Source: Mycobacterium sp.
GTDB taxonomy: Bacteria > Actinomycetota > Actinomycetes > Mycobacteriales > Mycobacteriaceae
Length of the DNA: 39,824 nucleotides
NCBI GenBank assembly: GCA_020438845.1
Contig: JAGQTV010000101.1
Coordinates: forward strand, 1 to 39,824
Reading direction: 5' to 3'
Positions within the stretch are counted from its first letter, which is position 1. Each line of letters begins with the position of its first letter. Position numbers and translations under genes: made by a program. The notes under the pieces were generated by a model. That model worked only from the letters and a program-made list of their open reading frames with translations. It did no database searches and was not told the DNA's origin. Positions 8,536 to 23,172 of this stretch are shown here, in pieces.

Positions 8536-9597
8536 CACCGGCATCGAACCGGTGTAGACCCGCCAATGCAACACCTCGACCATGGCGATCTCCATCAGCA
8601 CCAGGTGCACCAGAAAGATTTCGTAGGAGATCTCCCCCAGCCACACCATCGGCCGGCTGGCCAGAAACCTTTCGTACCAGCCTTGGTCGCCCAACGCCGG
8701 CGGGGCCACCACCAGCGTCGCGATCGCCATGTAGAAAAGCGTCTTGACCACCGCCTGGGCCAATCCGCTCGGTGATGTCGTCGGCTCGCCGGCTACCGGC
8801 GTGGAGGCAATGAAGTAGCAAACCACCGCCAGTGGCGCCGCGATGAACCAGTAGCAGCGCACCCCCATGGCGGCCAGCACGGTGAGGATCATCCCGCCGG
8901 TGAACCAGGCCAGGTAGCCCGGCAGCCAAAGCCGTGCACCGTCGGGCAGGTGGGTTGCCGTGTGCACGTACACCATCCACGCCGGGCTGATCAGCGTGAG
9001 CCCGACGAGGCCGGCAAGCAACGGCACCGGTCGCCAACGTCTTCGGCACACCACCACCAGCAGCAGGTAGGCCATGATCGGCAGGGCCACGTAGAACGCC
9101 ACCTCCACCGCCAGGCTCCACATCTGGGTCAGACCCTGATGGAGGTAGGAGAACATGTAGGCGTCGGTGTAGATCTGGGTGAGCGTGAGGTTGCGAAACA
9201 GCCCGTACCAACCGTGTCCGGGATTGGGGCCGGCCTCGCGGAAGTGATAGATCAGGTAGGCCACCAGCACCGTGATGACGTAGGCCGGCATGATGCGCCG
9301 CACCCGATGCCAGGCATAGCGGCGCACTGACGGCCACGGTGCCCCGGCGGCCACGGCCTTCACCCACGGGCCGAACAGCAGGTACCCGGACAGCACGAAG
9401 AAGATCGGCACGCCCATCTCCATCCGGGAGAAAAGCAACCCCGCATATCCGTGGGTGTACTTGCCTGTGGTGTAGGCGGCGTGAGTAGCGACGACCAGCA
9501 GTGCGGCCACAGCGCGAACCCCGGTGAGAGAGGGCACCCTATCGACGGTCGAGACGGCTTCCAGGCCACCTTGGTCGACCTCACGGGGGGCGGTCAT
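8461..9597 (-). CDS. Acyltransferase 3 family membrane protein (Rv1254-like)
   Basis: 378 aa with about ten hydrophobic segments. The family moves acyl groups (acetyl, succinyl and others) onto sugars or lipids at the membrane. It opens with the typical SLTGVRAVAALLVVATHAAY, in which the His is the predicted active-site residue, followed by MEMGVPIFFVLSGYLLF. The ATG at 9597 overlaps the stop of deaD (shared 9594-9597), so translation is probably coupled to the helicase gene. The acceptor molecule is unknown; in mycobacteria such enzymes decorate envelope glycolipids. Position and orientation match Rv1254. Confidence 0.9.
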   Translation of the reverse strand: MTAPREVDQGGLEAVSTVDRVPSLTGVRAVAALLVVATHAAYTTGKYTHGYAGLLFSRMEMGVPIFFVLSGYLLFGPWVKAVAAGAPWPSVRRYAWHRVRRIMPAYVITVLVAYLIYHFREAGPNPGHGWYGLFRNLTLTQIYTDAYMFSYLHQGLTQMWSLAVEVAFYVALPIMAYLLLVVVCRRRWRPVPLLAGLVGLTLISPAWMVYVHTATHLPDGARLWLPGYLAWFTGGMILTVLAAMGVRCYWFIAAPLAVVCYFIASTPVAGEPTTSPSGLAQAVVKTLFYMAIATLVVAPPALGDQGWYERFLASRPMVWLGEISYEIFLVHLVLMEIAMVEVLHWRVYTGSMPVLFVVTLALSIPAAWLLHRLTRVRS

Positions 9598-11306
9598 TGC
9601 TTGTCGCGCCGCGGCTTCCTGGCCGGCGGCCGCGAGTCATGGGAGGGCCGTCCGCGGTCGGGCCGCAGGTCGATCAACACACCCGAAATACGAGTATTCT
9701 CAAGAGCTTTCAACGTCGCTCTGGGTAGCTTCGCCGGAAGCTCGACCAGCGAGAAGTCACTCTTTATCGTGATGTGCCCGAAGTCGCTGCGGTGCAGACG
9801 GCCTTCGTTGGCGATAGCACCGACGATGGAACCCGGACCGACCTTGTGCTTCTTGCCGACCGAGATCCGGTAGGTGGCAAGGTCATCGCGGATCTTCCGC
9901 TCCGGCCGTTCCCGCTCTGGGCGATCCGGGCGATCACGACGCCTGTCGGGGGGAGGCTCGGTCATCAGGAACTCCGCGCCGTCGCGGGACTGCAATGCCA
10001 GCGCCGCCGCGATGTCGGCCATCGGGACGTCGTTCTCGCGTTCGTAATCCTCGATCAGCCGTCGGAACATGTCGAAGCCCGGGGCGCCGAGAGCCTCGGT
10101 GATCGAGTCCCGGAACTTGGCCACCCGTTGGGCGTTGACGTCTTCGACGGTGGGTAGGGCGATCTCCTCGACCGGCTGGCGAGTGACCTTCTCAATCGCC
10201 TTGAGCAAGTGGCGCTCCCGAGGCGATACGAACAGCAGGGCAGTCCCCGATCGCCCAGCACGGCCGGTGCGGCCGATCCGGTGCACGTAGGACTCCGGGT
10301 CGTGCGGGATGTCGTAGTTCAGCACGTGCGAAATACGTTCCACGTCGAGGCCTCGAGCGGCGACGTCGGTGGCCACCAGAATGTCGATACTGCCGTCTTT
10401 GAGCGCAGCGATAGTCCGTTCACGCTGGGCCTGGGCGATATCGCCGTTGATTGCGGCGGCGGAAAACCCCCGCGCCCGTAGCTTTTCGGCCACTTCCTCG
10501 GTTGCCTGCTTAGTCCTGACGAAGATGATCATCGCCTCGAAGGGCTCGACCTCCAACACCCTGGTCAGCGCGTCCATCTTTCGGGGACCGGCAACCTGGA
10601 TGTAGCGCTGGGTGATGTTCTCCGCCGTGACGGTCTTGGCCTCGACAGCGACCTCGACCGGATCGTGCAGGTACTTCTTGGTGATCTTGCGGATGGCGGG
10701 AGGCATGGTGGCCGAAAACAGAGCCACCTGCTTGTATTCCGGCGTGTCGGCCAGAATCCTTTCGACATCCTCCGCAAAGCCCATCTGCAGCATCTCGTCG
10801 GCCTCGTCGAGCACCAGGTAGTCCAGATGGGACAGATCCAGAGTGCCGCGCTCAAGGTGGTCGATTACGCGACCGGGCGTACCGACCACAACCTGCGCGC
10901 CACGCCGCAAGCCGGCCAACTGCACGGTGTAGGACTGCCCACCGTAGATCGGGAGCACAGTGATCCTGGGCAGGTGAGCGGCATAGCGGCTGAAGGCTTC
11001 GGCTACCTGAATCGCCAGTTCCCGGGTGGGCGCCAACACCAGTGCCTGGGTCCGGGAACTGGTGGTGTCGATCCGAGACAGGATCGGAATGGCGAAGGCG
11101 GCGGTTTTCCCGGTGCCGGTCTGAGCCAGTCCGACCACGTCGGAACCGGCAAGTAGCGCGGGGATCGTCGCCGCCTGGATCGCCGAGGGCGATTCGTATC
11201 CAACGTCGGTGACGGCCCGCAGCACCTCGGGGTGAATCTGCAGGTCAGCGAAGCTCCCGGTGGGGGAAACCGGCGAGTCTTCCGGGCGATCGTCAGGGAA
11301 TGTCAT
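9594..11306 (-). CDS. deaD: DEAD-box RNA helicase DeaD/CsdA
   Basis: 570 aa. It unwinds short RNA duplexes with ATP in ribosome assembly and mRNA turnover, especially in the cold. Motifs in order: Walker A AQTGTGKT, PTRELA, GTPGR, DEAD in LDEADEML, SAT, then the C-terminal helicase lobe ending HRIGRTGRAGRSG. After an Arg/Asp-rich linker comes a DbpA-type RNA-binding domain (GPGSIVGAIANEG to RISGVLIDLR). ATG 11306 (MTFPDDRPED) is chosen because it has a TACACT box just upstream and matches the M. tuberculosis start; the open frame to 11396 overlaps the H-NOX promoter region. Confidence 0.95.
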   Translation of the reverse strand: MTFPDDRPEDSPVSPTGSFADLQIHPEVLRAVTDVGYESPSAIQAATIPALLAGSDVVGLAQTGTGKTAAFAIPILSRIDTTSSRTQALVLAPTRELAIQVAEAFSRYAAHLPRITVLPIYGGQSYTVQLAGLRRGAQVVVGTPGRVIDHLERGTLDLSHLDYLVLDEADEMLQMGFAEDVERILADTPEYKQVALFSATMPPAIRKITKKYLHDPVEVAVEAKTVTAENITQRYIQVAGPRKMDALTRVLEVEPFEAMIIFVRTKQATEEVAEKLRARGFSAAAINGDIAQAQRERTIAALKDGSIDILVATDVAARGLDVERISHVLNYDIPHDPESYVHRIGRTGRAGRSGTALLFVSPRERHLLKAIEKVTRQPVEEIALPTVEDVNAQRVAKFRDSITEALGAPGFDMFRRLIEDYERENDVPMADIAAALALQSRDGAEFLMTEPPPDRRRDRPDRPERERPERKIRDDLATYRISVGKKHKVGPGSIVGAIANEGRLHRSDFGHITIKSDFSLVELPAKLPRATLKALENTRISGVLIDLRPDRGRPSHDSRPPARKPRRDKQ

Positions 11307-11315
11307 TGCGCTGCG

Positions 11316-11321
11316 AGTGTA
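11316..11321 (-). promoter_or_regulatory. -10 box for deaD (near-leaderless)
   Basis: TACACT on the minus strand predicts +1 near 11309, leaving a leader of about 3 bases before ATG 11306. Confidence 0.55.
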
Positions 11322-11366
11322 GTGGGTATTTGCGACAGACATGGGGGCGATGACGTCGAACTGACG

Positions 11367-11372
11367 TAGGCT
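11367..11372 (+). promoter_or_regulatory. -10 box for the H-NOX / c-di-GMP operon
   Basis: TAGGCT predicts +1 at the A of 11379, giving a 17-base leader that contains GGAGGA (11388-11393) just before ATG 11396. The box lies 45 bases from the divergent deaD box. Confidence 0.5.
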
Positions 11373-11395
11373 GACCTGACTGAATATGGAGGACA

Positions 11396-11932
11396 ATGAA
11401 GGGCGTCATCTTCAACCTGCTGGAAGACGTGGTGACCAACACCTACGGGGATCGAACGTGGGACGAGTTGCTGGAGCAGGCTGACCTCGACGGCGTCTAC
11501 ACCTCGCTGGGCAGCTACGACGACGCGGAGTTGATGGACCTGGTGGCAAAGGCCGGGTCGGCCTTGTCCATGTCCGACGACGATGTACTGCGCTGGTTCG
11601 GGCGTCAGGCGATACCCGAGATGGTAGAGCGCTGGCCGGCCTTTTTCGCCGCGCACCAGTCGACTTTGCCGTTTCTGCTCACCCTCAACAGCGTCATCCA
11701 CCCCGAGGTGCGCAAACTCTATGCGGGAGCCTATTGCCCGCACTTCGACTTCACCTCCCCGCCCGACGGATCGCTGCTGATGGGCTATCGCAGCCCCCGC
11801 AAGCTCTGCGGCCTTGCGCACGGCTTCATCCTCGGCGCCGGTGACCACTACGGCGAGACACTCACAGTGGAACACCTGAAATGCATGCACGAGGGGGCTG
11901 ACCGCTGCCTGATCGCCGTCACGGCGGCGTAG
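11396..11932 (+). CDS. H-NOX heme nitric oxide sensor protein
   Basis: 178 aa, a stand-alone H-NOX domain that binds heme and senses NO in the cytoplasm. Key residues fall at the same numbers as in the Thermoanaerobacter H-NOX: proximal heme ligand His102 (SVIHPEVRKLY), Pro115 that bends the heme (AYCPHF), and the heme-propionate clamp Tyr131-Ser133-Arg135 (GYRSPRKLC). Position 140, which is Tyr in O2-binding members, is Leu here, so an NO sensor that excludes O2 is predicted. Cys163 and Cys171 near the C terminus could carry a redox role, as reported for some H-NOX proteins. The GAF-GGDEF-EAL gene follows after 7 bases, the classic operon partner. The gene is not part of the M. tuberculosis block. 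Confidence 0.92.
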   Translation: MKGVIFNLLEDVVTNTYGDRTWDELLEQADLDGVYTSLGSYDDAELMDLVAKAGSALSMSDDDVLRWFGRQAIPEMVERWPAFFAAHQSTLPFLLTLNSVIHPEVRKLYAGAYCPHFDFTSPPDGSLLMGYRSPRKLCGLAHGFILGAGDHYGETLTVEHLKCMHEGADRCLIAVTAA

Positions 11933-11939
11933 GGCTGAC

Positions 11940-14012
11940 ATGGCGGCAGATCATGGATACCCACCCGATACGCAAGAGCCGGCTCCGGCCGAGGAATCGG
12001 TACCTGAACTGGCGGAGGAGAACAAGCTCCTGCGCCGCCGACTGGAACGGGAGACGCGAATCCGCCGCAAGGCGGAGGAGATCGCCGAACAGGGCCTACG
12101 CGACCTCTATCACAAACAGCGGGAACTCGAATTCCTCTCCCAGATAACAAAAATGGCCAACCAGGCGGGTTCCGCCCGGGAAGTGCTGGCGTCAGCACTC
12201 GAATACATCTGCCGCTTCATCGAATGGCCGGCGGCACACGCCCACATCGTCGGCGGCGAACGCCTGGCACGGCGAATGTGGCCGTCGAACATCTGGTACG
12301 CCGACCCGGCACTCGACGTCGCTCCGCTGCAAACCGCCACGGCGGAGTACGTTTTCACCAAAGGTGAAGGCTTGCCGGGCCAGGTCTGGGATTCGGCCAG
12401 CGCCGTCTGGCTTGACGACCTCAAGGACCGCCCGAATTTCCCCCGCAGCGAAAGCGCCCTGGCCACCGGTCTGCGTTGCGCCTTCGCCGTTCCGCTCCTG
12501 ATCGGATCCGAAGTGGCTGCCGCCCTGGAGTTCTTCGGCCCCAACCCGACTCCGGAAGATCCCGCGCTGCTGGACATGCTGGGCAAAGCAGGCACACAAC
12601 TGGGCCGCGTGATCGAGCGGGATCAGGCCAACGCCCGACTGCTGGATCCCATGCACGATGCCCTCACCGGCTTGCCCAGCCGCCGGTTTTTCCTGCGGAA
12701 TGTCGAACAGGCTCTGCGCGAATACACGATCGACCACGGGAGAAGGTTCTGCGTCCTTTTCATCAACTTGGACCGGTTCAAGTTGGTGAATGACAGCCTG
12801 GGCCATGCGGCGGGCGATGTTCTACTCAGGCAGGTAGGAGCCCGGCTGAAGGCATCACTCGAGGAAGGAGAGCTCGCCGCAACGGTGAGTGAAGACAGCC
12901 TGCCTCAGCTGATGGCGCGGTTGGGCAGTGACGAATTCGCGATGTTACTGCCCGAGGTCGGGCAGGCGGATGAGGCCCTGGCAATCGCCGATCGGATCCA
13001 GGGCTTGCTGTGCAATCCGTTCCGCGTTGAAGGCCACGAGGTGGTGATCAACGCGAGTATCGGTATCGCGATGAGCTCGTCGGACAATCGCTCGGCTGAC
13101 GAAATGGTGCGCCACGCCGACCTGGCGATGCACGCGGCCAAGGCGCGGGGCGCAGCACGGTCCGAGGTCTACGAGGGCTCGCTGCAAGACTTCGCGACGC
13201 GCCGTATGACGTTGCACAACGAACTCCGTGCCGCCGTCAACAACGAGGCATTCGAACTGCACTATCAACCGGTGGTCTCCTTGGCCGACGGCGAAATCCT
13301 CGGAGTCGAGGCCTTGGTGCGTTGGCGGACATCGCCAACCACGTTGCGCTACCCGGACGAATTCATCTTCGCAGCCGAGGAGACGGGGCTCATCGTTCCG
13401 CTCGGTGCATGGGTGCTCCGGGAGGCGTGCCGCGCCGCGAACCGCTGGTCCGCGAGCCGCGGCGAGAAGCATCCCGTGACAGTCGCCGTCAACGTGTCAC
13501 CGCGCCAATTCGCCCAACCGGACTTGGTAGACCAGGTCCGCAGCACCATCGCCGAAACCGGTATCAGGCCGGAGCTACTCACGCTGGAGCTCACTGAGTC
13601 GATGACGATGGGTGACGCCGACCACGCCGCCGAAGTGTTGCACCAGCTTCGCGATCTCGGAGTTCGGATCAGCATCGACGATTTCGGAACGGGCTTCTCC
13701 TGCCTCAGCTACCTGCACCGGTTCCCGCTTCAGGTGCTCAAGATCGATCGGTCATTCATCGCCCGCATGGAGACCCACATGGAGAGCCTGGAGATCGTGA
13801 ACACGATTCTGGTTCTGGCTCGAAGTCTCGGTCTGAAGGTGGTCGCTGAAGGCGCCGAAACCGCCGAAGAGGTCCATCGGCTGCGCTCCTTGGGCTGCGA
13901 TTCCTACCAGGGTTTTTATTTCTCCCCGCCGGTGACCGAAGAGGAGCTGCTGGAGCTTCTCGACGCTTCGGCGGAATCGCGACCGCCCTTGCCGACACCA
14001 CCGCCGGACTGA
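11940..14012 (+). CDS. GAF-GGDEF-EAL c-di-GMP turnover protein, H-NOX partner
   Basis: 690 aa. Order: Pro/Glu-rich start, coiled coil (about 22-70), GAF-like sensor domain (about 72-225), GGDEF domain (about 235-410), EAL domain (about 425-675). The GGDEF site is altered: GSDEF at 329-333, the first metal Asp of the DxD motif is Asn276 (FINLDRFK), and no RxxD inhibitory site precedes it. The EAL site is complete: Glu457 (EALVRW), Asn518, Glu550 (LELTES), Asp580/Asp581 (DDFGTGF), Lys601, Glu638 and Gln657. The protein should therefore mainly hydrolyse c-di-GMP, perhaps with GTP binding to the GGDEF part as an activator. In H-NOX/c-di-GMP systems the H-NOX protein binds this partner and switches its activity on NO binding. 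Confidence 0.93.
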   Translation: MAADHGYPPDTQEPAPAEESVPELAEENKLLRRRLERETRIRRKAEEIAEQGLRDLYHKQRELEFLSQITKMANQAGSAREVLASALEYICRFIEWPAAHAHIVGGERLARRMWPSNIWYADPALDVAPLQTATAEYVFTKGEGLPGQVWDSASAVWLDDLKDRPNFPRSESALATGLRCAFAVPLLIGSEVAAALEFFGPNPTPEDPALLDMLGKAGTQLGRVIERDQANARLLDPMHDALTGLPSRRFFLRNVEQALREYTIDHGRRFCVLFINLDRFKLVNDSLGHAAGDVLLRQVGARLKASLEEGELAATVSEDSLPQLMARLGSDEFAMLLPEVGQADEALAIADRIQGLLCNPFRVEGHEVVINASIGIAMSSSDNRSADEMVRHADLAMHAAKARGAARSEVYEGSLQDFATRRMTLHNELRAAVNNEAFELHYQPVVSLADGEILGVEALVRWRTSPTTLRYPDEFIFAAEETGLIVPLGAWVLREACRAANRWSASRGEKHPVTVAVNVSPRQFAQPDLVDQVRSTIAETGIRPELLTLELTESMTMGDADHAAEVLHQLRDLGVRISIDDFGTGFSCLSYLHRFPLQVLKIDRSFIARMETHMESLEIVNTILVLARSLGLKVVAEGAETAEEVHRLRSLGCDSYQGFYFSPPVTEEELLELLDASAESRPPLPTPPPD

Positions 14013-14015
14013 CGA

Positions 14016-14810
14016 TCAGAGTCCAGGCAGGTTACCCGGCGCAACCGCGCGGTAGAGCGCGCTGCCGGGCTTGCGACACTGCTGCAGAATCCACCACGCC
14101 CCACAGAGATTCGACGACAAGATGGGAACTCGGCCGAGGTGGCCGGCCCGGTAGATGCTGGCAATGCTGACCAGTCCAGTCCCTGAGAGCAGGACGGCCG
14201 AGTCCGGCTCCGGTTCCAGGGATCGCAAGTGCGCGGTCACCTCGTCGGGTCGCGTCTCGTAAGCCCTGAACTGCTCGCCCTCACCAAGGAGATGTTCGAC
14301 TGCGATGACATTGAACCCGGCGCCCGACCAGTACCGCACGGTCTCTTCGGTGAGCCAGTCCGGGTAGGGCGACATCAGGTGGATGCGATCGATTCCCATG
14401 GCCGCCAGGGCGTCGTGGATGGCCAAACTCGCGGTACGAACCGGTGCCCCCAATTGCACCGTCAGGTCGGAGCACAGATCCCGGTCACCGTCGATCCCGA
14501 ATTGGTAGTTCGGGCCGGTCATTGCGATCAGAGCGCACTCCAGATCGAGTCCACAGAGTCCGTCGAGAGCATCGGCGTAGGCCGGGACGTAGCGGTGGTT
14601 TCGCTGCTCCAGGGTGAGCCCGGTGAATCGGGGTAGCCGAGAACCGTAGATCAGAACGTCGTCACCGACCAGAGCATCGACCTCGGGCTCGACAACGGGG
14701 TTGGACGGAGGCACCACGACCCCGACCCGCAAACAATGATCGGCAAGCCAAGCCAACTCGGCGTACTCCCCGAGACCAGCCCTGCCGGTCCCATCAGTCC
14801 CCGAATCCAT
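14016..14810 (-). CDS. Maleate isomerase / arylmalonate decarboxylase-like protein lacking the catalytic cysteines
   Basis: 264 aa from ATG 14810, which has GGAGGAGGG 10 bases upstream; the longer frame to 14864 lacks a ribosome site. The fold is recognised from VGVVVPPSNPVVEPEVDAL, YADALDGLCGLDLECALIAM and VPILSSNLCGAWWIL, typical of the maleate cis-trans isomerase branch of the Asp/Glu racemase superfamily. Family enzymes use two cysteines. Here the first (the ACTS region) reads AMTGP and the second (the SCTQL or SCGGL region) reads SGTGL, so both are missing. A lone Cys in SSNLCGAW is not at a known catalytic place. It is divergent from the monooxygenase gene, with 98 bases between, and is likely part of the same pathway. 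The reaction is unknown. Confidence 0.8.
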   Translation of the reverse strand: MDSGTDGTGRAGLGEYAELAWLADHCLRVGVVVPPSNPVVEPEVDALVGDDVLIYGSRLPRFTGLTLEQRNHRYVPAYADALDGLCGLDLECALIAMTGPNYQFGIDGDRDLCSDLTVQLGAPVRTASLAIHDALAAMGIDRIHLMSPYPDWLTEETVRYWSGAGFNVIAVEHLLGEGEQFRAYETRPDEVTAHLRSLEPEPDSAVLLSGTGLVSIASIYRAGHLGRVPILSSNLCGAWWILQQCRKPGSALYRAVAPGNLPGL

Positions 14811-14895
14811 CGCGACCACCCTCCTCCAGCACCGCCTATCCCGGCGTCCGGTTGAATCCGCCACCGGAACATACTCGCCCGGGGCGCTGATCAGC

Positions 14896-14901
14896 TAACT
14901 T
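14896..14901 (+). promoter_or_regulatory. -10 box of the monooxygenase-HemB-like operon
   Basis: TAACTT predicts +1 at 14908-14909, the A of ATG 14909 (leaderless). It lies in the 98-base gap shared with the divergent gene at 14810. Confidence 0.55.
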
Positions 14902-14908
14902 GCGTCCT

Positions 14909-16126
14909 ATGACCCCGGAGGCGGTGATCGTCGGCGCTGGGCCAGTGGGCGCATTGTCGGCGTTGCTGCTGGCTCGGCGGGGGGTATCGGTGGAGCTCAT
15001 CGAAGCACATGCAACCCTGACCACCGAGTCCCACGCTTCGACGTTTCACCCCTCGACGCTCGACCTTCTCGCGGCAGAGGGCATCGAACTGACAAACCAC
15101 CCCGACGCCGTCCGGGTGAAATCCATCCAGTGGCGCGACAATCGGGGCCAGATCCGGGCAGAGGTGGACTATCGACTGCTTGACGGAATAACCCGGCACC
15201 CGTTCCGGATTCACCTCGAGCAGCAGGCACTGCTCGACCGCCTCGCCATCCTGCTCGCCGCCGAACACCGGATTTCCTTCCGTCCCGGCCTCACCGCGAC
15301 CAACGTCGACCCGACCGGACCCAGTGTCACGGTGTCGTCCGAAGGCGGCCGCGACCACACCCTCACGGCCGGCGTGATCATCGGATGCGACGGCTCCCGT
15401 TCCGCAGTCCGTGCGGCGGCCGGAATCGGCTTCCCCTCATCTGAATACCCGACCGGCGCGATACGAGCCCACATGACGGAGGACCTAGCCGAACTGATGC
15501 CGCCCAACCGCGGCGAACAGTCGTTGTCGGGTCTGTGTTACTTCCGAGGCAAAGGTGACGGTGTCAGTACCTTGCGGATGGCCCGCAGCACCCGGTTGAT
15601 CGTGCGAACCACACACCACGACGATGACTTTCGACGTCTCAGCGAGGCGGTGGCCAACGCAACCCCCTGGTCGATCGACGACTTCTCCATCGATCGAATC
15701 GACAATTACCGCTTGAACCGTGGGGTGGCGGACTGCTATCTCGCCCGCTTGGGCCCAGTGCTCATTCTCGGAGACGCTGCCCACGTGACCTCCACGGCAG
15801 GCGGCCTCAACATGAACGCCGGCCTTCAGGACGCCTTCGCCCTGATGCCCGTTGTCGCCGACTGGCTGCATGGCGAAACCGCGCTTGAATCCATTGCGGA
15901 AGTCGCCGCACTGAGACGCGAATATCTTGAACACCAGGTGATCCCCCGCAGCGAACGGCGCGTGAAGGGCTTGCAGGAACTCGACAGCGCCGCGCTGAAG
16001 GAACACCTGGACGACATCGACCACCTCGCCGCCGACCCGGACGCAGGGCGACGATTCCTGATCGAGGCCTCGCTACTGGACATGCCACTGACCCCGGCTG
16101 GAGCCCAATTGAGGAAGGCCCAATGA
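14909..16126 (+). CDS. FAD-dependent aromatic-ring-type monooxygenase (PheA/TfdB/UbiH family)
   Basis: 405 aa. Group A flavin monooxygenase: it uses NAD(P)H, FAD and O2 to hydroxylate an aromatic or enol-type substrate. Motifs: dinucleotide fold VIVGAGPVGALSALLLARRG at the N terminus, the DG motif GCDGSRSAVRAAAG near residue 155-170, and the GD motif LILGDAAHVTSTAGGLNMN near 285-305. ATG 14909 is chosen over TTG 14900 because of the leaderless promoter. It is the first gene of a four-gene run (monooxygenase, racemase-like, HemB-like, MFS) with gaps of 13, -4 and 15 bases. The C-terminal thioredoxin-like domain of phenol hydroxylases is absent. Substrate unknown. Confidence 0.87.
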   Translation: MTPEAVIVGAGPVGALSALLLARRGVSVELIEAHATLTTESHASTFHPSTLDLLAAEGIELTNHPDAVRVKSIQWRDNRGQIRAEVDYRLLDGITRHPFRIHLEQQALLDRLAILLAAEHRISFRPGLTATNVDPTGPSVTVSSEGGRDHTLTAGVIIGCDGSRSAVRAAAGIGFPSSEYPTGAIRAHMTEDLAELMPPNRGEQSLSGLCYFRGKGDGVSTLRMARSTRLIVRTTHHDDDFRRLSEAVANATPWSIDDFSIDRIDNYRLNRGVADCYLARLGPVLILGDAAHVTSTAGGLNMNAGLQDAFALMPVVADWLHGETALESIAEVAALRREYLEHQVIPRSERRVKGLQELDSAALKEHLDDIDHLAADPDAGRRFLIEASLLDMPLTPAGAQLRKAQ

Positions 16127-16139
16127 AGAGAGAACTCGC

Positions 16140-16958
16140 ATGAGGATCTGGCTGCAGAAGCACGTCATCGAGGACCGTATGCCGGAACTCGACCAGTGGT
16201 ATCGCGCGCACATCGCAACCGTTGTCGACCCCGACACTGAGGTGGTCATCCACACTCTGCCCCGCCGCACCTACGAGACCGACGTCCCCTATCAATACGT
16301 GAGTTACGGCGCCGTCGCCGTGCACTTCAACCACTATTTCGCTCAGACCGCGGTGCAGGCCGAACGCGACGGGTACGACGCGTGGGTGATCGCCGCGGGC
16401 CAGGATCCCGGCCTCCCCGCCGCACGTGCCCTGACCGGAATCCCCGCCCTCGGCTACGGCAATACGGTGTTCCATCACTGTGCCCGCGATGAAATCCGTT
16501 TCGGGATAATCGGATTCGCTGCCGGGCTGCGTGAGCCCATCGTCGACAACGTTCGCCGCTACCGCGCCGAACACCTGTTGACCGGCTACTCGGTGATCCC
16601 CGGGGGCAAGGACGCAGTGGTCGCCGCCATTGCAGGTGACCCCGACCGATTCCTGCACGACTTCGCGGCGGCCGCCGCGAAGGCCGCGGACGCCGGCGCC
16701 CAGGTGATCATCCCCGCTGAAGGATTGCCCACCGAGATTCTCTGGCACTACGACATTCACACGATTGCAGGACTGCCGGTGCTCGATCCGCTGGGCCTGT
16801 TGTTGAAGGCCGCCGAGACCGAGGTCCGACTGCGGACGCTGGGATGCACCGCGAGGCCGACAACAGGATTCTGGTACGCCCGACCGGATGCCGCGATCAC
16901 CTCCCATATCGAGTCCGTCTTCGCCGGTAACGACATCGAACCGGGAACCGAGGTATGA
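16140..16958 (+). CDS. Asp/Glu/hydantoin racemase superfamily protein lacking both catalytic cysteines
   Basis: 272 aa. It resembles hydantoin racemases (YGNTVFHHCARDEIRFGIIG, DAWVIAAGQDPGLPAARALT, AGLPVLDPLGLLLKAAE). The residue pair that racemases use is lost: the first Cys (normally IACFxDPG) is Ala in IAAGQDPG, and the second (normally GCAG) is Ala in IPAEGLP. Classical two-base racemisation is therefore not expected; a lyase, decarboxylase or non-catalytic role is possible. A GAGAGA stretch precedes ATG 16140. Its stop overlaps the start of the HemB-like gene by four bases (ATGA, 16955-16958), so translation is coupled. Together with the gene at 14016 it makes two Cys-less superfamily members in one cluster. 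Confidence 0.8.
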   Translation: MRIWLQKHVIEDRMPELDQWYRAHIATVVDPDTEVVIHTLPRRTYETDVPYQYVSYGAVAVHFNHYFAQTAVQAERDGYDAWVIAAGQDPGLPAARALTGIPALGYGNTVFHHCARDEIRFGIIGFAAGLREPIVDNVRRYRAEHLLTGYSVIPGGKDAVVAAIAGDPDRFLHDFAAAAAKAADAGAQVIIPAEGLPTEILWHYDIHTIAGLPVLDPLGLLLKAAETEVRLRTLGCTARPTTGFWYARPDAAITSHIESVFAGNDIEPGTEV

Positions 16959-17944
16959 AACCGCCCCGCCACCGTCCGCGGCGGTTACGCCGCACCGCCG
17001 CGCTGCGCCGGTTGACCGCCGAGGTTACGGTCGTGCCGTACGGGCTGGTGCAGCCGATCTTCGTCCGCGACGGAATCGACCACCGGCGCGAGATCCCCTC
17101 GATGCCAGGTCAATACCAGCACTCGGTGGCTTCGGCGGTACGGGCCGCCGCCGAGGCGGCTTCGGCAGGTGTTGGCGGTGTCATGTTGTTCGGGATCCCG
17201 TCGAGCAAGGACGAAGCAGGCGCGGAGGCCTCCGATCCAGACGGGATCATGCAACGTGCCCTGCGCGCTGTCGTCGGCGAAGTCGGCGACGATATCGTGG
17301 TCATCGGCGATGTGAACCTCGACGAATACACTACCCACGGACACAGCGGTGTCCTCGGGGCCGACGGCGACGTCGACAATGACCGTAGCATCGCGCGGTT
17401 CGCCGAAGTCGCTGTCGCACAGGCTGATGCCGGCGCACAGGTGGTGGCGCCCAGCGGCATGATGGATGGTCAGGTCGGGAGAATGCGCGACGCACTGGAC
17501 GCTGCGGGACACCAGTCGGTGGCGATCATGGCCTACGCCACCAAATTCGCCTCCAGTTTCTACGGACCCTTCCGCGATGCGGTCGAGTCGTCGCTCGTCG
17601 GCAATCGCAAGACCTACCAACAATTTCCGGGAAACAGCCGGGAAGCCGTACGGGAGGTCCTACTGGATGTCGACCAGGGCGCCGACATCGTGATGGTCAA
17701 GCCTGCGCTGCCCTACCTGGACGTCATCACCCGCGTGACGGACGTTACGCACCTTCCGGTGGCCGCCTATCAGGTCTCCGGCGAGTACATCATGGTGGAG
17801 GCCGCCGCAGCGCAGGGCGGACTGGACCGCTCGGCAGCCATCCGTGAATGCCTGCTGTCGATCCGCCGGGCCGGCGCGGCAATCATCGTGACCTACTGGG
17901 CGACCGAGGCCGCCGGATCGCTTCTTGGCGGGCTCGACTATTGA
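16955..17944 (+). CDS. Porphobilinogen synthase (HemB) paralogue with altered metal site
   Basis: 329 aa, full HemB length. HemB joins two 5-aminolevulinates into the pyrrole porphobilinogen. Both Schiff-base lysines are kept (AYATKFASSFYGPFRDA and MVKPALPYLDVI), as are GPSGMMDGQVGRMRDALD and AAYQVSGEY. The zinc site is not: where zinc enzymes have two or three Cys in the TCLDEFTDHGHCG region, this one reads VNLDEYTTHGHSG, with Asn and Ser in place of Cys. The housekeeping mycobacterial hemB normally lies with hemC and hemD elsewhere, so this copy is probably a specialised enzyme of the local cluster, perhaps using ALA or a related amino ketone. It could also be a zinc-independent backup of HemB. 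It overlaps the racemase-like gene by four bases. Confidence 0.88.
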   Translation: MKPPRHRPRRLRRTAALRRLTAEVTVVPYGLVQPIFVRDGIDHRREIPSMPGQYQHSVASAVRAAAEAASAGVGGVMLFGIPSSKDEAGAEASDPDGIMQRALRAVVGEVGDDIVVIGDVNLDEYTTHGHSGVLGADGDVDNDRSIARFAEVAVAQADAGAQVVAPSGMMDGQVGRMRDALDAAGHQSVAIMAYATKFASSFYGPFRDAVESSLVGNRKTYQQFPGNSREAVREVLLDVDQGADIVMVKPALPYLDVITRVTDVTHLPVAAYQVSGEYIMVEAAAAQGGLDRSAAIRECLLSIRRAGAAIIVTYWATEAAGSLLGGLDY

Positions 17945-17959
17945 GCCCCAGCTGAACTG

Positions 17960-19114
17960 ATGCGCAAGGTTCTGCTGCTTGCGCTGGGCACCTTCGCGCT
18001 GGGCCTGGATGCATTCATCGTCGCGGGTCTGATTCCCGACATCTCCGCCCAGACCGGTGTCACCGAAGCCGATGTCGGCCAGATGGTTACCGTGTTCACC
18101 CTGAGCTACGCCGTCTCCGGACCGTTGCTGTCATCACTGCTCAAGGCCGACGCCAAGACTCTGCTGCTGGCATCGATGCTCGTGTTCACGGTCGGAAACG
18201 TCGCCAGCGCAACAGCGGATTCGTTCGCCGAGTTGCTCGTGTCGCGGGTTGTGGCCGGAGTCGGGGCCGGCCTGTACTCACCGACGGCGGCCGCCAGTGC
18301 GGCACACCTGGCGCCGCCGGAGAAACGCGGACGGGCGCTGTCGGTGATTCTGGCCGGGATGAGTGTCGGCACCGTGATCGGCGTGCCCGTCGGGCTCATG
18401 CTGGCCGCACAACTGGGCTGGCGATCCGCGTTCTGGTGGGTATCCGCGATCGGCGTCCTCGCAACCGCCGCCATCGCCATCTTCGTTCCGCGACTGCACA
18501 TCCCGGCCCCACCGGGCGTCGCGGCTCGACTGGCCACCCTCACCGACCGGCGGGTCACACCCATCATCCTCGTCACGCTGTTGTTCAACATCGCCAGCCT
18601 CGGTCTTTACACCTACATCGCGCCGATCCTGCAGGCCACGGCTGGGATCACCCGCCCCACGATGTTCCTCTGGGTCTGGGGCGTCGGGGGCATCGTCGGG
18701 GCCGTCACGATCGGCGCGCTGGTCGACAGGGCCGCCAGCGCCACCCGGGTCATGCCGTTCGTCCTGAGTTTGTTCATCCTCGCAGCGGCTGCCATCACCC
18801 CGGCCGGCTCTGCGCCGGTGCTGCTGGCGGTGGCTTTGGGCTGCTGGGGTGCGGCAGGGTTCGCCTCACCGCCGCCCCAGCAGCATCTGCTGCTCGAACG
18901 TGCTCCCGACCGCGGAGCGGTTGCCGTCGCGGTCAACGGGTCGGCGATCTATCTGGGCAGCACACTGGGAAGCGCCTTGGCGGGAGTCGCACTGCACGCC
19001 GGTGTAGGGCTGTCGCACCTCCCCCCTCTCGCTGCGGGGATCGCCGGCCTTGCGTTGGTGGCATATGTGACGTTGGTCATCCCGCAGACGGCTGGCGGCC
19101 GCCGAACCCGATAG
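17960..19114 (+). CDS. MFS transporter, DHA1/AraJ type
   Basis: 384 aa with twelve predicted membrane segments. The DHA1 efflux pattern is seen: ALGLDAFIVAGLIPDISAQT in segment 1, VSRVVAGVGAGLYSPTAAAS in segment 4, and the proline-rich motif GVPVGLMLAAQLGWRSAFWW in segment 5. It lies 15 bases after the HemB-like gene, so it is probably the exporter (or importer) of the cluster's product or substrate. ATG 17960 begins directly with the first hydrophobic helix. Transported compound unknown. Confidence 0.87.
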   Translation: MRKVLLLALGTFALGLDAFIVAGLIPDISAQTGVTEADVGQMVTVFTLSYAVSGPLLSSLLKADAKTLLLASMLVFTVGNVASATADSFAELLVSRVVAGVGAGLYSPTAAASAAHLAPPEKRGRALSVILAGMSVGTVIGVPVGLMLAAQLGWRSAFWWVSAIGVLATAAIAIFVPRLHIPAPPGVAARLATLTDRRVTPIILVTLLFNIASLGLYTYIAPILQATAGITRPTMFLWVWGVGGIVGAVTIGALVDRAASATRVMPFVLSLFILAAAAITPAGSAPVLLAVALGCWGAAGFASPPPQQHLLLERAPDRGAVAVAVNGSAIYLGSTLGSALAGVALHAGVGLSHLPPLAAGIAGLALVAYVTLVIPQTAGGRRTR

Positions 19115-19170: not shown

Positions 19171-20823
19171 ATGACGAACAACGAACTGCAAGAACGCCCG
19201 GCATCCGCGCCCCCGAACGGGGCGGCTGCCAACCGGGTCTCGGCCGAAGCCCTCCGCCGAAGGACCTTCGCGGTGATCAGCCATCCCGACGCAGGCAAGT
19301 CGACCCTCACCGAGGCGCTGGTCCTGCACGCCCGGGCGATCACCGAGGCAGGCGCAATCCACGGCAAGGCCGGCCGTCGCGCCACCGTGTCGGACTGGAT
19401 GGAGATGGAACAGGCCAGGGGCATCTCGATCACCTCCACGGCCCTGCAGTTTCCTTATCACGCGGCCGACGGCCAGGACTGCGTCATCAACCTGCTCGAC
19501 ACACCGGGGCACGCCGACTTCTCCGAAGACACCTACCGCGTGCTCAGTGCCGTCGACTGCGCCGTCATGCTCATCGATGCCGCGAAGGGCCTTGAGCCGC
19601 AGACTCTCAAGCTCTTCCAGGTGTGCCGCCATCGCCGCATCCCGATCCTCACCGTGATCAACAAGTGGGACCGTCCGGGCCGTCACGCCCTGGAACTCCT
19701 CGACGAGATCCACGACCGCATCGGCCTGAAACCCACCCCGTTGACCTGGCCGGTCGGTATAGCCGGTGACTTCAAGGGTGTCCTTGATCGCCGCACCGGC
19801 AACTTCATCCGGTTCACCCGCACGGCCGGCGGCGCCACGGCAGCCCCTGAGGAGCACATCGCTCCGGAGCGCGCCGAGGACGCTGCCGGCGTCGACTGGG
19901 TCAACGCGTTCGAAGAATGCGAACTGCTCTCCGCCGACGACGGGGATCACGACCAGGAAGCCTTCCTCGCCGGTGAGACGACGCCGGTCCTGTTCACCTC
20001 GGCCGCGCTCAACTTCGGGGTGAACCAACTCCTGGACAACCTGGTTCGGCTTGCGCCGTCACCCGGTGGGCAGAGCGACGTCGAGGGCAACCTGCGGCCG
20101 GTCGACTCGGCCTTCAGCGCGTTCGTCTTCAAGGTCCAGGCCGGAATGGACTCCGCCCATCGCGATCGCATCGCCTTCGCGCGGGTCTGCTCGGGCACCT
20201 TCGAGCGTGGGGACGTCCTCACCCACGCCGCCACCGGTAAGCCGTTCGTCACCAAGTACGCGCAGTCGGTGTTCGGGCAACAACGGTCGACGTTGGACAA
20301 CGCGTGGCCCGGGGATGTGATCGGCCTGGCCAACGCCGCCGCACTGCGCCCGGGCGACACCCTGTTCCGCGACGTTCCGGTGCACTTCCCGCCGATTCCC
20401 AGCTTCTCCCCCGAGTATTTCTCCGTCGCCAGGGGCACCGACCCCAGTAAGCACAAGCAGTTTCGGCGCGGTATCGAGCAACTGGAGCAGGAAGGTGTGG
20501 TCCAGGTGCTGCGTTCGGATCGACGCGGTGATCAGGCGCCAGTACTCGCCGCTGTCGGCCCGATGCAGTTCGAGGTCGCCAGCCATCGGATGGCAACGGA
20601 GTTCAACTCACCGATTTCGCTGGAATCCCTGCCCTACACCGTCGCACGGGCCGTCGATCCCGAGGACGCCGCATTGTTGGAGAAGCAGGTGTCGATGGAA
20701 GTGCTCACCCGCACCGACGGGGTGATGCTGGCACTGTTCACCACGAAGTGGCGCCTGCAAGGGTTCTGCGAGGACAACCCCGGCGTTCGGTTGCGGTCGC
20801 TGGTCGCCGCGGGCGAAAACTGA
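19171..20823 (+). CDS. prfC: Peptide chain release factor 3 (RF3)
   Basis: 550 aa GTPase that helps RF1/RF2 leave the ribosome after termination and assists quality control after miscoding. G-domain motifs: HPDAGKST (P loop), EMEQARGISIT (switch 1), LLDTPGHADFSEDTYR (switch 2) and VINKWDR (guanine specificity; NKxD kept). The C-terminal domains are typical of RF3 (PEYFSVARGTDPSKHKQFRR and AVGPMQFEV). ATG 19171 gives the standard RF3 N terminus with a short extension; the frame is open to 18436, but that part is antisense-like sequence inside the MFS gene. The ABC-F gene ends 6 bases after it on the other strand. To my knowledge RF3 is patchy among mycobacteria. Confidence 0.93.
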   Translation: MTNNELQERPASAPPNGAAANRVSAEALRRRTFAVISHPDAGKSTLTEALVLHARAITEAGAIHGKAGRRATVSDWMEMEQARGISITSTALQFPYHAADGQDCVINLLDTPGHADFSEDTYRVLSAVDCAVMLIDAAKGLEPQTLKLFQVCRHRRIPILTVINKWDRPGRHALELLDEIHDRIGLKPTPLTWPVGIAGDFKGVLDRRTGNFIRFTRTAGGATAAPEEHIAPERAEDAAGVDWVNAFEECELLSADDGDHDQEAFLAGETTPVLFTSAALNFGVNQLLDNLVRLAPSPGGQSDVEGNLRPVDSAFSAFVFKVQAGMDSAHRDRIAFARVCSGTFERGDVLTHAATGKPFVTKYAQSVFGQQRSTLDNAWPGDVIGLANAAALRPGDTLFRDVPVHFPPIPSFSPEYFSVARGTDPSKHKQFRRGIEQLEQEGVVQVLRSDRRGDQAPVLAAVGPMQFEVASHRMATEFNSPISLESLPYTVARAVDPEDAALLEKQVSMEVLTRTDGVMLALFTTKWRLQGFCEDNPGVRLRSLVAAGEN

Positions 20824-20829
20824 GCCGGT

Positions 20830-22500
20830 CTACAACTGGGTTACCCGCCCGCGGTCAACGACCCACGAACGATCCAGCCTGACGTTCTGCAGCATCCGGC
20901 GGTCGTGCGTGACCAGCAGCAGTGCGCCGTCGTAGGACTCCAGTGCCTGCTCGAGTTGCTCGATGGCGGGCAGGTCGAGATGATTCGTCGGCTCGTCGAG
21001 AACCAGTACGTTCGTACCACATGCCTGCAACAGCGCCAGCCCTGCGCGGGTTCGCTCGCCTGGGGACAGTTCGTCAAGCTCGCGCTCCACGTGGTCGGCG
21101 CGCAGCCCGAATTTCGCGAGCAGGGTCCGTACGTCGGCTGTTGACCAGGACGGCACCCGTCGCTCGAACCGATCCACGAGTCGACCCGGTCCGGTGAAGT
21201 CGGCGCGTGCCTGGTCGATCTCGCCGATGGCGATATTCGCACCCAAACTCGCGCGTCCCTCATCGGGCTGTCGGTGCCCGAGCAGGAGCCGCAACAGCGT
21301 CGACTTTCCCGCCCCGTTGGGACCGGTGATGCCGATCCGCTCGCAGGCATCGATTTGCAGCGAGACCGGGCCCAAGGTGAAATCGCCCTGTCGTACAACG
21401 GCATTGTCGAGCGTGGCGACCACCGAGCTCGACCGCGGCGCGTCCCCAATGGTGAACTGGAGGGTCCACTCCTTGCGGGGCTCGGCGACCTCTTCCAGAC
21501 GGGCGATCCGGCTCTCCATCTGCCGCACCTTCTGTGCCTGTTTCTCGCTGGACTCAGTGGCCGCCGCCCGGCGAATCTTGTCGTTGTCCGGTGACTTGCG
21601 GATGGCGTTGCGGACTCCCTGGCTCGACCACTCCCGTTGTTTGCGGGCACGCGCCACGAGATCGGCCTTCTTTTCGGCGAACTCCTCGTACTGTTCGCGC
21701 TTGTGCCTGCGGTTTATCTCGCGCTCGTCCAGATAGCTCTCATACCCGCCGCCGAAGACGGTGGTGGTGTTCTGGGCGAGGTCCAGTTCCAGGACGCGGG
21801 TCACGCTGCGGGCGAGGAACTCTCGGTCGTGGCTCACCAGTACGACGCCACCGCGAAGGTCCCGGACGAAGTCCTCCAACCGAGCCAGCCCGTCGAGGTC
21901 GAGATCGTTGGTCGGCTCGTCCAGCAGGACGACGTCGAACCGCGACAGCATCAGTGCAGCCAGTCCGACACGCGCCGCCTGCCCTCCGGACAGCGCAGTC
22001 ATCGGCATCGACTCCGGTGACAGGTCGCGCCCCACGTCGGCCAGCCCCAAGTCGGCCAACACAGCAGGCAGTCGCTCGCTCAGGTCCGCTGCGCCGGTGG
22101 CCAGCCAGTGATCCAACGCAGCGGCGTAGACCTCCCCCGGGTCGATGCCCGCCGGGCCGGGAACGGGGTCGGCCAGGGCCTCAGCTGCCTGTTCCATGGC
22201 CTGGGTCGCTGCCGTGCAACCGGTACGTCGCGCCACGTAGGCGGCCACAGTTTCACCGGGAACCCGTTGGTGCTCCTGCGGCAGCCAACCGACGAATGCA
22301 TCAGCCGGAGCGACGCTGACGGTGCCATCGAGCGGCTCCAGGTCACCGGCGAGAATCCGCAGCAACGTGCTCTTGCCCGCACCGTTGGCACCGACCACTC
22401 CGATGACGTCACCCGGCGCCACGGTCAAATCCAGGCCCTGGAAGAGCGCTCGGTGAGCGAACCCACCTGCCAGGTTCTTCGCCACCAGCGTCGCGGTCAT
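20830..22500 (-). CDS. ABC-F family ATPase (Rv1473-like)
   Basis: 556 aa, no membrane segments, with two ABC ATPase domains in one chain joined by a charged helical linker (about residues 255-345, rich in Lys, Arg and Glu). Walker A motifs GANGAGKST and GPNGAGKST; signatures LSGGQAARVGL and LSPGERTRAGL; Walker B LLDEPTNDLD and VLDEPTNHLD. ABC-F proteins act on the ribosome (translation factors or antibiotic-target protection), not as transporters. The sequence looks closer to the Rv1473 type, which has been linked to macrolide tolerance, than to EttA. It converges on prfC, and both concern the ribosome. Start ATG 22500; no strong ribosome site, and GACGAT at 22507-22512 may be a weak leaderless -10. 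Confidence 0.88.
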   Translation of the reverse strand: MTATLVAKNLAGGFAHRALFQGLDLTVAPGDVIGVVGANGAGKSTLLRILAGDLEPLDGTVSVAPADAFVGWLPQEHQRVPGETVAAYVARRTGCTAATQAMEQAAEALADPVPGPAGIDPGEVYAAALDHWLATGAADLSERLPAVLADLGLADVGRDLSPESMPMTALSGGQAARVGLAALMLSRFDVVLLDEPTNDLDLDGLARLEDFVRDLRGGVVLVSHDREFLARSVTRVLELDLAQNTTTVFGGGYESYLDEREINRRHKREQYEEFAEKKADLVARARKQREWSSQGVRNAIRKSPDNDKIRRAAATESSEKQAQKVRQMESRIARLEEVAEPRKEWTLQFTIGDAPRSSSVVATLDNAVVRQGDFTLGPVSLQIDACERIGITGPNGAGKSTLLRLLLGHRQPDEGRASLGANIAIGEIDQARADFTGPGRLVDRFERRVPSWSTADVRTLLAKFGLRADHVERELDELSPGERTRAGLALLQACGTNVLVLDEPTNHLDLPAIEQLEQALESYDGALLLVTHDRRMLQNVRLDRSWVVDRGRVTQL

Positions 22501-22606
22501 GGCTCAATCGTCGCAGGCCAGGATCAGTTCGCTCACGGCCCGGTTCGTCACGGTTGAGGTTTGGCCACTTCGCGCGTCGAAACCGGAAGGCCGCGCCATC
22601 CGCCGG

Positions 22607-22612
22607 TACCGT
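22607..22612 (+). promoter_or_regulatory. -10 box for lprE
   Basis: TACCGT predicts +1 at 22619, two bases before GTG 22621. This favours GTG 22621 over the upstream TTG at 22561 as the start. Confidence 0.45.
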
Positions 22613-22620
22613 GCTGCGAT

Positions 22621-23172
22621 GTGCGGGATCGGCTAGCGATGGCGGCGGCAGCCTTGGCTGTCGCTGCGGGACTGACCGGATGCAGTTCGGGGGATTCAAC
22701 GGTGTCCAAGACGCCGCTGCCCTCGACCAGCGCAGCGCCCACGTCGGCGCCGCCCAGCCAGGCTGCACCACCGCCACCGCCGGAACCACCGCCCCCGGAT
22801 CCGTGCGCGGTGAACCTGGCTGCCCCCGCGATCGCCAAGACGGTCTCGGAATTGCCGCGCGATCCCGCCAGCGACAAGGCCTGGAACCCCGAGCCGATCG
22901 CCGGCAACTACAACGAGTGCGCCCAGCTTTCGGCGGTGATCATCAAGGCCGACACCGACGCCCAGAGCCCCAACACCAGGGCGGTCCTGTTCCACCTGGG
23001 CAAGTTCATTCCGACCGGGGTGCCCGACACCTACGGGTTCAACGGGATCGACCCGGCACAGAGCACCGGCGACACCGTGGCACTGACGTTCAAGGACGGA
23101 CTGGGGCTGCAGAGCGTGGTGAAGTTCCGCTGGAACGGCAACGGCGTAGAGGTGATCGGCAACACCGGCTGA
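22621..23172 (+). CDS. lprE: Lipoprotein LprE
   Basis: 183 aa from GTG 22621. A short type II signal peptide ends in the lipobox LTGC (Cys21 lipidated), followed by a Ser/Thr/Pro-rich spacer with runs of proline and then a conserved globular domain. That domain closely matches Rv1252c LprE (DPCAVNLAAPAIAK, SELPRDPASDKAWNPEPIAG, FHLGKFIPTGVPDTYGFNGI, VVKFRWNGNGVEVIGNT). LprE of M. tuberculosis is a surface lipoprotein implicated in host immune modulation; the molecular role is unknown. The frame is open back to 22561 (TTG), but that extension lacks signal-peptide character. Confidence 0.9.
   Translation: MRDRLAMAAAALAVAAGLTGCSSGDSTVSKTPLPSTSAAPTSAPPSQAAPPPPPEPPPPDPCAVNLAAPAIAKTVSELPRDPASDKAWNPEPIAGNYNECAQLSAVIIKADTDAQSPNTRAVLFHLGKFIPTGVPDTYGFNGIDPAQSTGDTVALTFKDGLGLQSVVKFRWNGNGVEVIGNTG

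Follow-up and report, generated by a model that had tools for sequence, protein, structure and literature searches.

A mycobacterial gene cluster with a second HemB that probably diverts porphobilinogen to an exported product, and its larger counterpart in Streptomyces

To our knowledge, porphobilinogen (PBG) is used only for tetrapyrroles, namely, heme, chlorophyll, and vitamin B12. We analyzed a locus of five genes, termed A to E, in a DNA stretch of 39,824 nucleotides from Mycobacterium sp. (assembly GCA_020438845.1, contig JAGQTV010000101.1; the whole stretch is referred to as the window), in which gene D encodes a second PBG synthase (HemB). The source genome (G000) comprises 118 contigs and has a completeness of 99.78. 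These genes probably form a small specialized-metabolite cluster that diverts PBG to an exported product, and we infer the reactions and the product from the sequences. The kind of system is known (a specialized-metabolite cluster with precursor-supply paralogues), and, to the extent of our search, its use of PBG in monomeric form would be new: no description of a PBG-using cluster was retrieved from open-licence PMC papers, subscription journals being outside the scope of the search. If correct, a cluster with its own PBG sent elsewhere would constitute a new branch of central metabolism and would give rise to a family of exported molecules in Streptomyces and mycobacteria. It would also involve a HemB with altered metal use and provide a defined pathway for two racemase-fold proteins that lack the usual cysteine pair.

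Several described systems resemble the locus in part. The housekeeping HemB and the C5 heme pathway (GltX, HemA, HemL, and HemB) use the same protein families, and the cluster HemB, HemA, and HemL (the latter two in Streptomyces) exceed curated equivalog cut-offs. However, the cluster proteins are second copies, HemB lacks two zinc cysteines, the GltX-like protein is below the cut-off for glutamyl-tRNA synthetase (GluRS), and the Streptomyces cluster showed no HemC, HemD, or subsequent gene of heme synthesis. Nicotine degradation in Pseudomonas putida S16 involves the maleate isomerase Iso and HspB, presented in PMC6122326 as a flavin adenine dinucleotide (FAD) enzyme that converts 6-hydroxy-3-succinoylpyridine to 2,5-dihydroxypyridine. 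Protein B is nearest to PnpA and HspB by profile and A is nearest to Iso (4fq7) in fold, whereas no ring-opening dioxygenase or amidase was seen in the cluster, the window A lacks the catalytic cysteines, and a HemB is present. Urate degradation comprises the FAD urate oxidase HpxO, OHCU decarboxylase, and allantoin racemase. Its logic is alike, in that a decarboxylase and an enzyme of racemase fold act after a flavin monooxygenase has attacked an electron-rich ring, and C folds like allantoin racemase; however, C lacks the cysteine pair. The route to alaremycin starts from an enzyme like 5-aminolevulinate (ALA) synthase and not from the C5 route. Alaremycin itself is described in PMC12670364 as a Streptomyces product linked to ALA and HemB, which displaces ALA in the HemB active site. 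The HemB2 paralogues described in PMC2770081 also lack the zinc cysteines; they sit in predicted Zur regulons, whereas D sits in a conserved metabolic cluster.

Inspection of the open reading frames (ORFs) of the window showed that all five genes are intact. Gene A is divergent from a tight run B-C-D-E with spacings of 13, -4, and 15 bases. This arrangement, as well as the identity of D as a HemB paralogue, of B as a flavin monooxygenase, and of E as a major facilitator superfamily (MFS) protein, had been proposed in a preliminary description of the locus and was confirmed. The features are as follows.

14016 to 14864, minus strand: gene A, AMDase/maleate isomerase fold protein (PF17645; likely start at 14810)
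14811 to 14908, no strand: short A/B intergenic region of 98 bp (A start 14810, B start 14909), from the sequence and the start choice by relatives
14909 to 16126, plus strand: gene B, group A FAD monooxygenase (ORF from TTG at 14900; PF01494, profile search, and alignment)
16140 to 16958, plus strand: gene C, hydantoin/allantoin racemase fold protein (PF01177, Foldseek, and profile alignment)
16955 to 17944, plus strand: gene D, second HemB (PBG synthase; NF006762 and alignment to solved HemBs)
17960 to 19114, plus strand: gene E, MFS exporter of the Cmx/CmrA-like drug-efflux type (PF07690, NF033135, and relatives)

The intergenic region would be expected to hold the promoters of both A and B.

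According to the pathway that we propose, D would join two ALA molecules into PBG separately from the usual route to heme. B would oxidize the pyrrole, which is electron-rich, with the carbon carrying the aminomethyl group as the most likely site; this group would be lost, and the resulting pyrrolinone or maleimide would retain both the acetate and the propionate arm. A and C, which have carbon-acid-type folds without the usual cysteine pair, may tautomerize or decarboxylate the aconitate-like ring, and E would export the product. In Streptomyces, GltX-like, HemA, and HemL proteins would feed D, forming a private line from glutamate via ALA to PBG, and an acyl-CoA synthetase, a CoA-transferase, and an F420 oxidoreductase may modify the acid arms. 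More tentatively, and with somewhat less than an even chance of being right, the cluster may define an undescribed natural-product family with monomeric PBG as a building block, an ipso-hydroxylating flavoenzyme that takes off the aminomethyl arm, and an exported maleimide- or itaconimide-like compound formed from the oxidized pyrrole by the two racemase-fold enzymes. The branch would then leave tetrapyrrole metabolism at PBG, the glutamate-to-PBG line being complete in Streptomyces and represented by HemB only in mycobacterial-type loci.

The first Streptomyces loci were found via HemB relatives (best 80 loci). The whole neighborhood is annotated on a linear plasmid of Streptomyces sp. NBC_00704 and contains 15 genes, in the following order.

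Genes 1 to 6: glutamate-tRNA ligase family protein, MFS protein, F420-dependent LLM oxidoreductase, LysR, DMT transporter, YCII/GerE
Genes 7 to 10: A, B, C, D
Genes 11 to 15: glutamyl-tRNA reductase, ADP-forming acyl-CoA synthetase, glutamate-1-semialdehyde (GSA) aminomutase, OsmC/Ohr protein, CaiB CoA-transferase

Gene C was detected in 17 of 392 genomes (E <= 1e-30) of a set taken as Streptomyces because the coordinates of C in one member, G488, coincide with those on the NBC_00704 plasmid. B, D, and HemA adjoin C in 16 of these 17, the exception being G906. Ten of the 11 fetched 20-kb neighborhoods agree in the order and orientation of the 15 genes (40-99% identity), whereas that of G906 (L163) differs. 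The cluster is also present in G1397 (L205) of a class-wide sample, where Ohr gave no score, and in G1046 (L167), a genome that is 55% complete, the locus is broken into frames or fragments. When five genomes were compared over an additional 20 kb on each side (ORFs of at least 80 amino acids passing a filter on third-codon-position GC, identity of at least 40%), no ORF outside the stretch from GltX to CaiB was common between lineages, except for flanks shared by G695 and G989 and, in G784 and G739, for a YciI-like ORF located upstream of GltX. The 15 genes are thus a discrete unit found at unrelated chromosomal places and on a plasmid, that is, a co-localized set kept in different flanks.

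Each of five Streptomyces genomes tested contains two HemA copies. The cluster HemA of one locus (L157) scored 330.4 against the cut-off of 209.55 of TIGR01035, and its HemL scored 587 against 527.3. The presence of GltX, HemA, and HemL paralogues next to HemB, with no later heme gene, points to PBG production, and we consider this the strongest argument for the proposed pathway.

On the NBC_00704 plasmid, a nonribosomal-peptide-synthetase-like set lies just before the cluster (L122, 4214-25352). It comprises adenylation and carrier proteins, TrpB-like and type III pyridoxal phosphate enzymes, glutamate-5-semialdehyde dehydrogenase, and acyl-CoA dehydrogenases.

Among 148 genomes of the genus of the window, the profile of A retrieved five at E <= 1e-30, namely, the window, G1073 (L037), G1500 (L036), G1412 (L202), and G1489 (L203). 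Together with L038, which is assigned to an 'uncultured actinobacterium', these form six mycobacterial-type loci. A, a FAD monooxygenase, and D are present in all six, C in four, and E in two; L036 and L202 are on short contigs, and absences there are weak evidence. L037 and L038 lack C and contain an MmgE/PrpD protein, a member of the family of cis-aconitate decarboxylase. L202 has the A-B-C-D arrangement of the window (80/63/78/87% identity) at a different place, where by eye it adjoins a prolyl-tRNA-synthetase-like ORF. In L203, A-B-C-D-E run in one direction (26/58/64/74/67% identity) near ribosomal protein genes, also judged by eye. Proteins of the same families, with 26-87% identity to those of the window, are encoded side by side at other places with unrelated surroundings, which indicates that their association is more than chance. 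It had been stated initially that the cluster reading would fail if its genes were not together elsewhere; they are kept together in both mycobacterial-type loci and Streptomyces. The five-gene set as such holds only in part: the A-B-C-D block recurs, but the part constant in the mycobacterial-type loci consists of A, D, and a FAD monooxygenase, and the Streptomyces system has 15 genes.

A locus of the mycobacterial type is found in the record of L036 (CALQLM010000111.1), which is titled Bifidobacterium breve. The contig is identical to one of G1500, a genome of the genus of the window, and the record is probably mislabelled.

Protein D matched PF00490 (ALAD) and scored 436.4 bits with the PBG synthase model NF006762 (equivalog cut-off 297), whereas it remained below the cut-off of a second HemB model, NF009923 (357.5 versus 507). 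The genome of the window contains one other HemB, on contig C23, together with a single HemA and a single HemL that exceed the family cut-off, so that of these three only HemB is doubled. Lys197 and Lys249 of D, which we take to be the active-site lysines, align with lysines of the solved HemBs 1w1z and 1b4e, and the surrounding motifs match. The zinc-ligand positions are occupied by Asn121, Asp123, and Ser131 and thus lack the cysteines of zinc-type HemBs. We compared 18 cluster HemBs with 74 other actinobacterial HemBs (73 of the best 80 loci and the other copy in the genome of the window). Fixed differences include Asn121 (Cys in 74/74 of the others), Gln33, and Ile117, among others, and both Asn121 and Gln33 occur in 18/18 cluster proteins. 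A scan of the metal loop found C-D-C 74 times and N-D-S or N-D-T in cluster copies, including those of L202 and L203, with no mixed case; the loci overlap, and the cluster counts are not independent. In an unrooted tree of 53 rows from a quick IQ-TREE search, cluster (18) and canonical (35; the own copy plus 34 drawn at random) HemBs form the two sides of one branch (SH-aLRT 98). Judging from these residues, D would be expected to form PBG largely independently of zinc.

The features of D also bear on three other explanations. Fixed changes such as Asn121 and Gln33 could shift specificity, and D might use its HemB fold to condense another amino ketone, the pathway being built on a product other than PBG. 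The match of both lysines and their motifs to solved HemBs and the ALA supply genes that adjoin D in Streptomyces argue against this, and we consider it highly improbable. Absence of the two zinc-ligand cysteines would equally suit a zinc-independent spare HemB for zinc starvation with incidental neighbors, since HemB2 paralogues without these cysteines and under predicted Zur control are described in PMC2770081. However, the neighbors are conserved from mycobacterial-type loci to Streptomyces, none of those named being linked to zinc, and such a spare would need neither the HemA, HemL, and GltX-like copies nor A, B, and C; this is the least probable of the explanations considered, with only a slight chance of being correct. 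Finally, the altered metal site of D with respect to the housekeeping HemB, the presence of an exporter, and the action of alaremycin on HemB (PMC12670364) are reminiscent of an antibiotic cluster with self-resistance, in which the product would be an ALA-like HemB inhibitor and D the resistant target copy. This is very unlikely given that the HemA, HemL, and GltX-like copies indicate precursor supply and that A, B, and C are unlike steps to a simple ALA analogue. Diversion of PBG made by D is the explanation that we favor.

Protein B scored 142.7 bits with PF01494 (FAD_binding_3), and its start is more likely the ATG at 14909 than the TTG at 14900. When a profile of nine B-type proteins was searched against solved proteins, PnpA (2.6e-52) and HspB (6.8e-52) were nearly 16 orders of magnitude ahead of the next protein (3.4e-36), and the flavin motifs GAGPVG, DG, and GD(A/S)AH are present in the alignment. 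By its closest solved relatives and its motifs, B is therefore of the PnpA/HspB type. Arg79, Arg103, Arg189, Arg232, and Arg236 are invariant in the nine rows, which extend down to 32% identity to the window protein, and these arginines fit with an acidic substrate. PnpA takes the nitro group off nitrophenol, and both PnpA and HspB add oxygen at a ring carbon that bears a leaving side chain. By analogy, the aminomethyl arm of PBG would be a plausible leaving group for B. Oxidized PBG products formed by a 'porphobilinogen oxygenase' appear in older literature.

Protein A scored 47.9 bits with PF17645 (Amdase; cut-off 25.9), whereas it remained below the cut-off of the arylmalonate decarboxylase equivalog (45.2 bits versus 225). 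Its N-terminal extension is unmatched in relatives, and A may therefore start at 14810. The cysteine of arylmalonate decarboxylase aligns with Gly228 of the window A, and none of the 12 aligned A rows has a cysteine at this position. The N-terminal motif carries Met or Leu in the window and four other mycobacterial-type rows and Cys in 7/12 rows (six Streptomyces rows and L203). The cysteine pair of maleate isomerase is consequently not complete in any row (C-terminal Cys 0/12, N-terminal Cys 7/12), and the window protein has neither, although the N-terminal alignment is uncertain by some residues and one alignment sets Cys110 of the window against the isomerase cysteine. One catalytic cysteine may thus have been retained in the A proteins of L203 and of the six Streptomyces rows. 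The idea that A lacks these cysteines throughout the cluster was therefore dropped, and the initial claim of two Cys-less racemase-fold proteins stands for C and for the window A but not for A in general.

The A proteins of L157, L159, L160, L161, L205, L095, and L203, with an N-terminal and no C-terminal cysteine, are the mirror image of arylmalonate decarboxylase. This pattern resembles that of the arylmalonate decarboxylase variant Gly74Cys-Cys188Ser (structure 3ixl). A further lead on this enzyme, PMC13107220, was set aside: this paper deals with fungal alkaloids and names the enzyme in a reference. Two weak matches of A in the family of the window (L118 and L119) have no B, C, or D in their surroundings (L120 and L121), and an MFS protein at 33% identity is found in L120. 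In G695 and G989, an extra tautomerase-family protein lies in the cluster just upstream of A (L160, 6927-7361; L162, 12339-12758).

Protein C scored 59.2 bits with PF01177 (Asp_Glu_race). Its predicted model, of moderate confidence (mean pLDDT 70.4), has the hydantoin/allantoin racemase fold, with allantoin racemase 3qvj as the top Foldseek match (8.6e-9). In a profile alignment, the racemase cysteines align with Ala86 and, depending on the alignment, with Ala193 or Glu194, and 15/15 aligned relatives lack Cys in either motif. This loss is not specific to the cluster, as many of the 15 sit in other settings. Of 301 genomes of the family of the window, 43 had a match to C at E <= 1e-3, but the own copy was the sole close one, the next best having ~30% identity. 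Four of 396 genomes of the phylum were retrieved at E <= 1e-8 (the own genome, G488 with the cluster, and distant matches in G490 and G407), and four of 384 genomes of the class-wide sample (the own genome, G488, G1397, and the cluster-free G1278). Among plasmids, there were 10 records, one with the cluster and nine at <40% identity (two of these nine neighborhoods were read), and a pattern search for C among genome contigs found no relative. In-frame stops in C of several Streptomyces were rejected as signs of pseudogenes, since natural 3' ends had been read past.

A C homologue with 49% identity is present in L163 of G906, a genome of the genus Streptomyces, where the rest of the cluster is absent. 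Distant Cys-less relatives of C in L123 (5995-6813; Variovorax, annotated) and L204 (9299-10099; an actinobacterium, by eye) sit with FAD oxidoreductases and an isochorismatase-family hydrolase.

Protein E belongs to PF07690 and scored 196.7 bits with NF033135, below the cut-off of 400. A relative with 67% identity lies directly after D in L203, and the Streptomyces loci compared contain MFS proteins with 42-48% identity.

The preliminary description had offered two routes, the synthesis of an exported pyrrole-derived metabolite and ring-opening catabolism. The latter would be a catabolic or detoxifying pathway in which excess ALA, PBG, or a related pyrrole is taken up or handled, B oxidizes it, A and C degrade it, and E serves in efflux or uptake. 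The resemblance of B to HspB and PnpA and of A to the maleate isomerase Iso, all degradation enzymes, suggests such a route, as does the Variovorax relative of C, which in addition adjoins tricarballylate dehydrogenase and MmgE/PrpD. However, in the Streptomyces cluster the HemA, HemL, and GluRS-like paralogues serve to form ALA, not to eliminate it. The cluster genes that were annotated or scanned include neither a ring-opening dioxygenase nor an amidase, and E resembles drug exporters. We therefore consider catabolism unlikely, and the ALA-supply paralogues favor biosynthesis of an exported metabolite.

Several observations weigh against the biosynthetic diversion of PBG. PnpA, HspB, and the maleate isomerase nearest to A all belong to catabolic pathways. 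The lead of PnpA and HspB appears solely with the profile: the window B as a single query ranked the putative oxygenase 4x4j at the top (2.2e-21), on a par with HspB (7.2e-21) and PnpA (7.6e-21), and this search does not separate 4x4j from them. B also differs between loci, a second type with 30-32% identity being found in L036, L037, and L038, and A differs at the N-terminal motif among the 12 rows, so that A may not perform the same chemistry everywhere. Glu194 of C as a substitute for a cysteine was weakened by the Thr at this position in L203, and C homologues without the cluster exist (G906/L163 and G1278/L204). As for precursor supply, the GltX, HemA, and HemL copies are absent from mycobacterial-type loci, the GltX-like protein does not reach the GluRS cut-off (261.2 versus 289.95), and HemA narrowly misses that of a second model of narrower scope (422.3 versus 429). 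E is missing from four of the six mycobacterial-type loci, two of them on short contigs.

The locus lies between two further features of the window.

9594-11396, minus strand: DEAD-box helicase, presumably deaD
22561-23172, plus strand: ORF with an LTGC lipobox, presumably lprE

The gene order is reminiscent of that of M. tuberculosis. The reported interruption of deaD-lprE synteny by genes A to E is accurate as to their position, but they are only part of an insert of ~11 kb that also contains an H-NOX gene, a GGDEF/EAL gene, prfC, and an ABC-F gene. The GC content of A to E (0.645-0.681) is like that of the window (0.656) and thus gives no sign of recent transfer. No tRNA and no Rfam family were found in the window, and the Streptomyces plasmid stretch contains no tRNA either. 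We sought a clean empty site for A to E via prfC and the GGDEF gene, and none was read. prfC was present in 8/21 genomes, including the own one (E <= 1e-100), but in five prfC neighborhoods none of A to E, deaD, or the GGDEF gene adjoined it, and ABC-F was present in one. The GGDEF/EAL gene had no match in the 20 other genomes searched (E <= 1e-200). Within the insert, prfC (release factor 3) and the ABC-F gene, which is ribosome-protection-like, occupy 19240-22500. On the other side, at 11396-14012, an H-NOX gene (heme-NO-binding, PF07700) is directly followed by the GGDEF/EAL gene, which adjoins A; these two genes are possibly a nitric oxide-sensing cyclic di-GMP pair.

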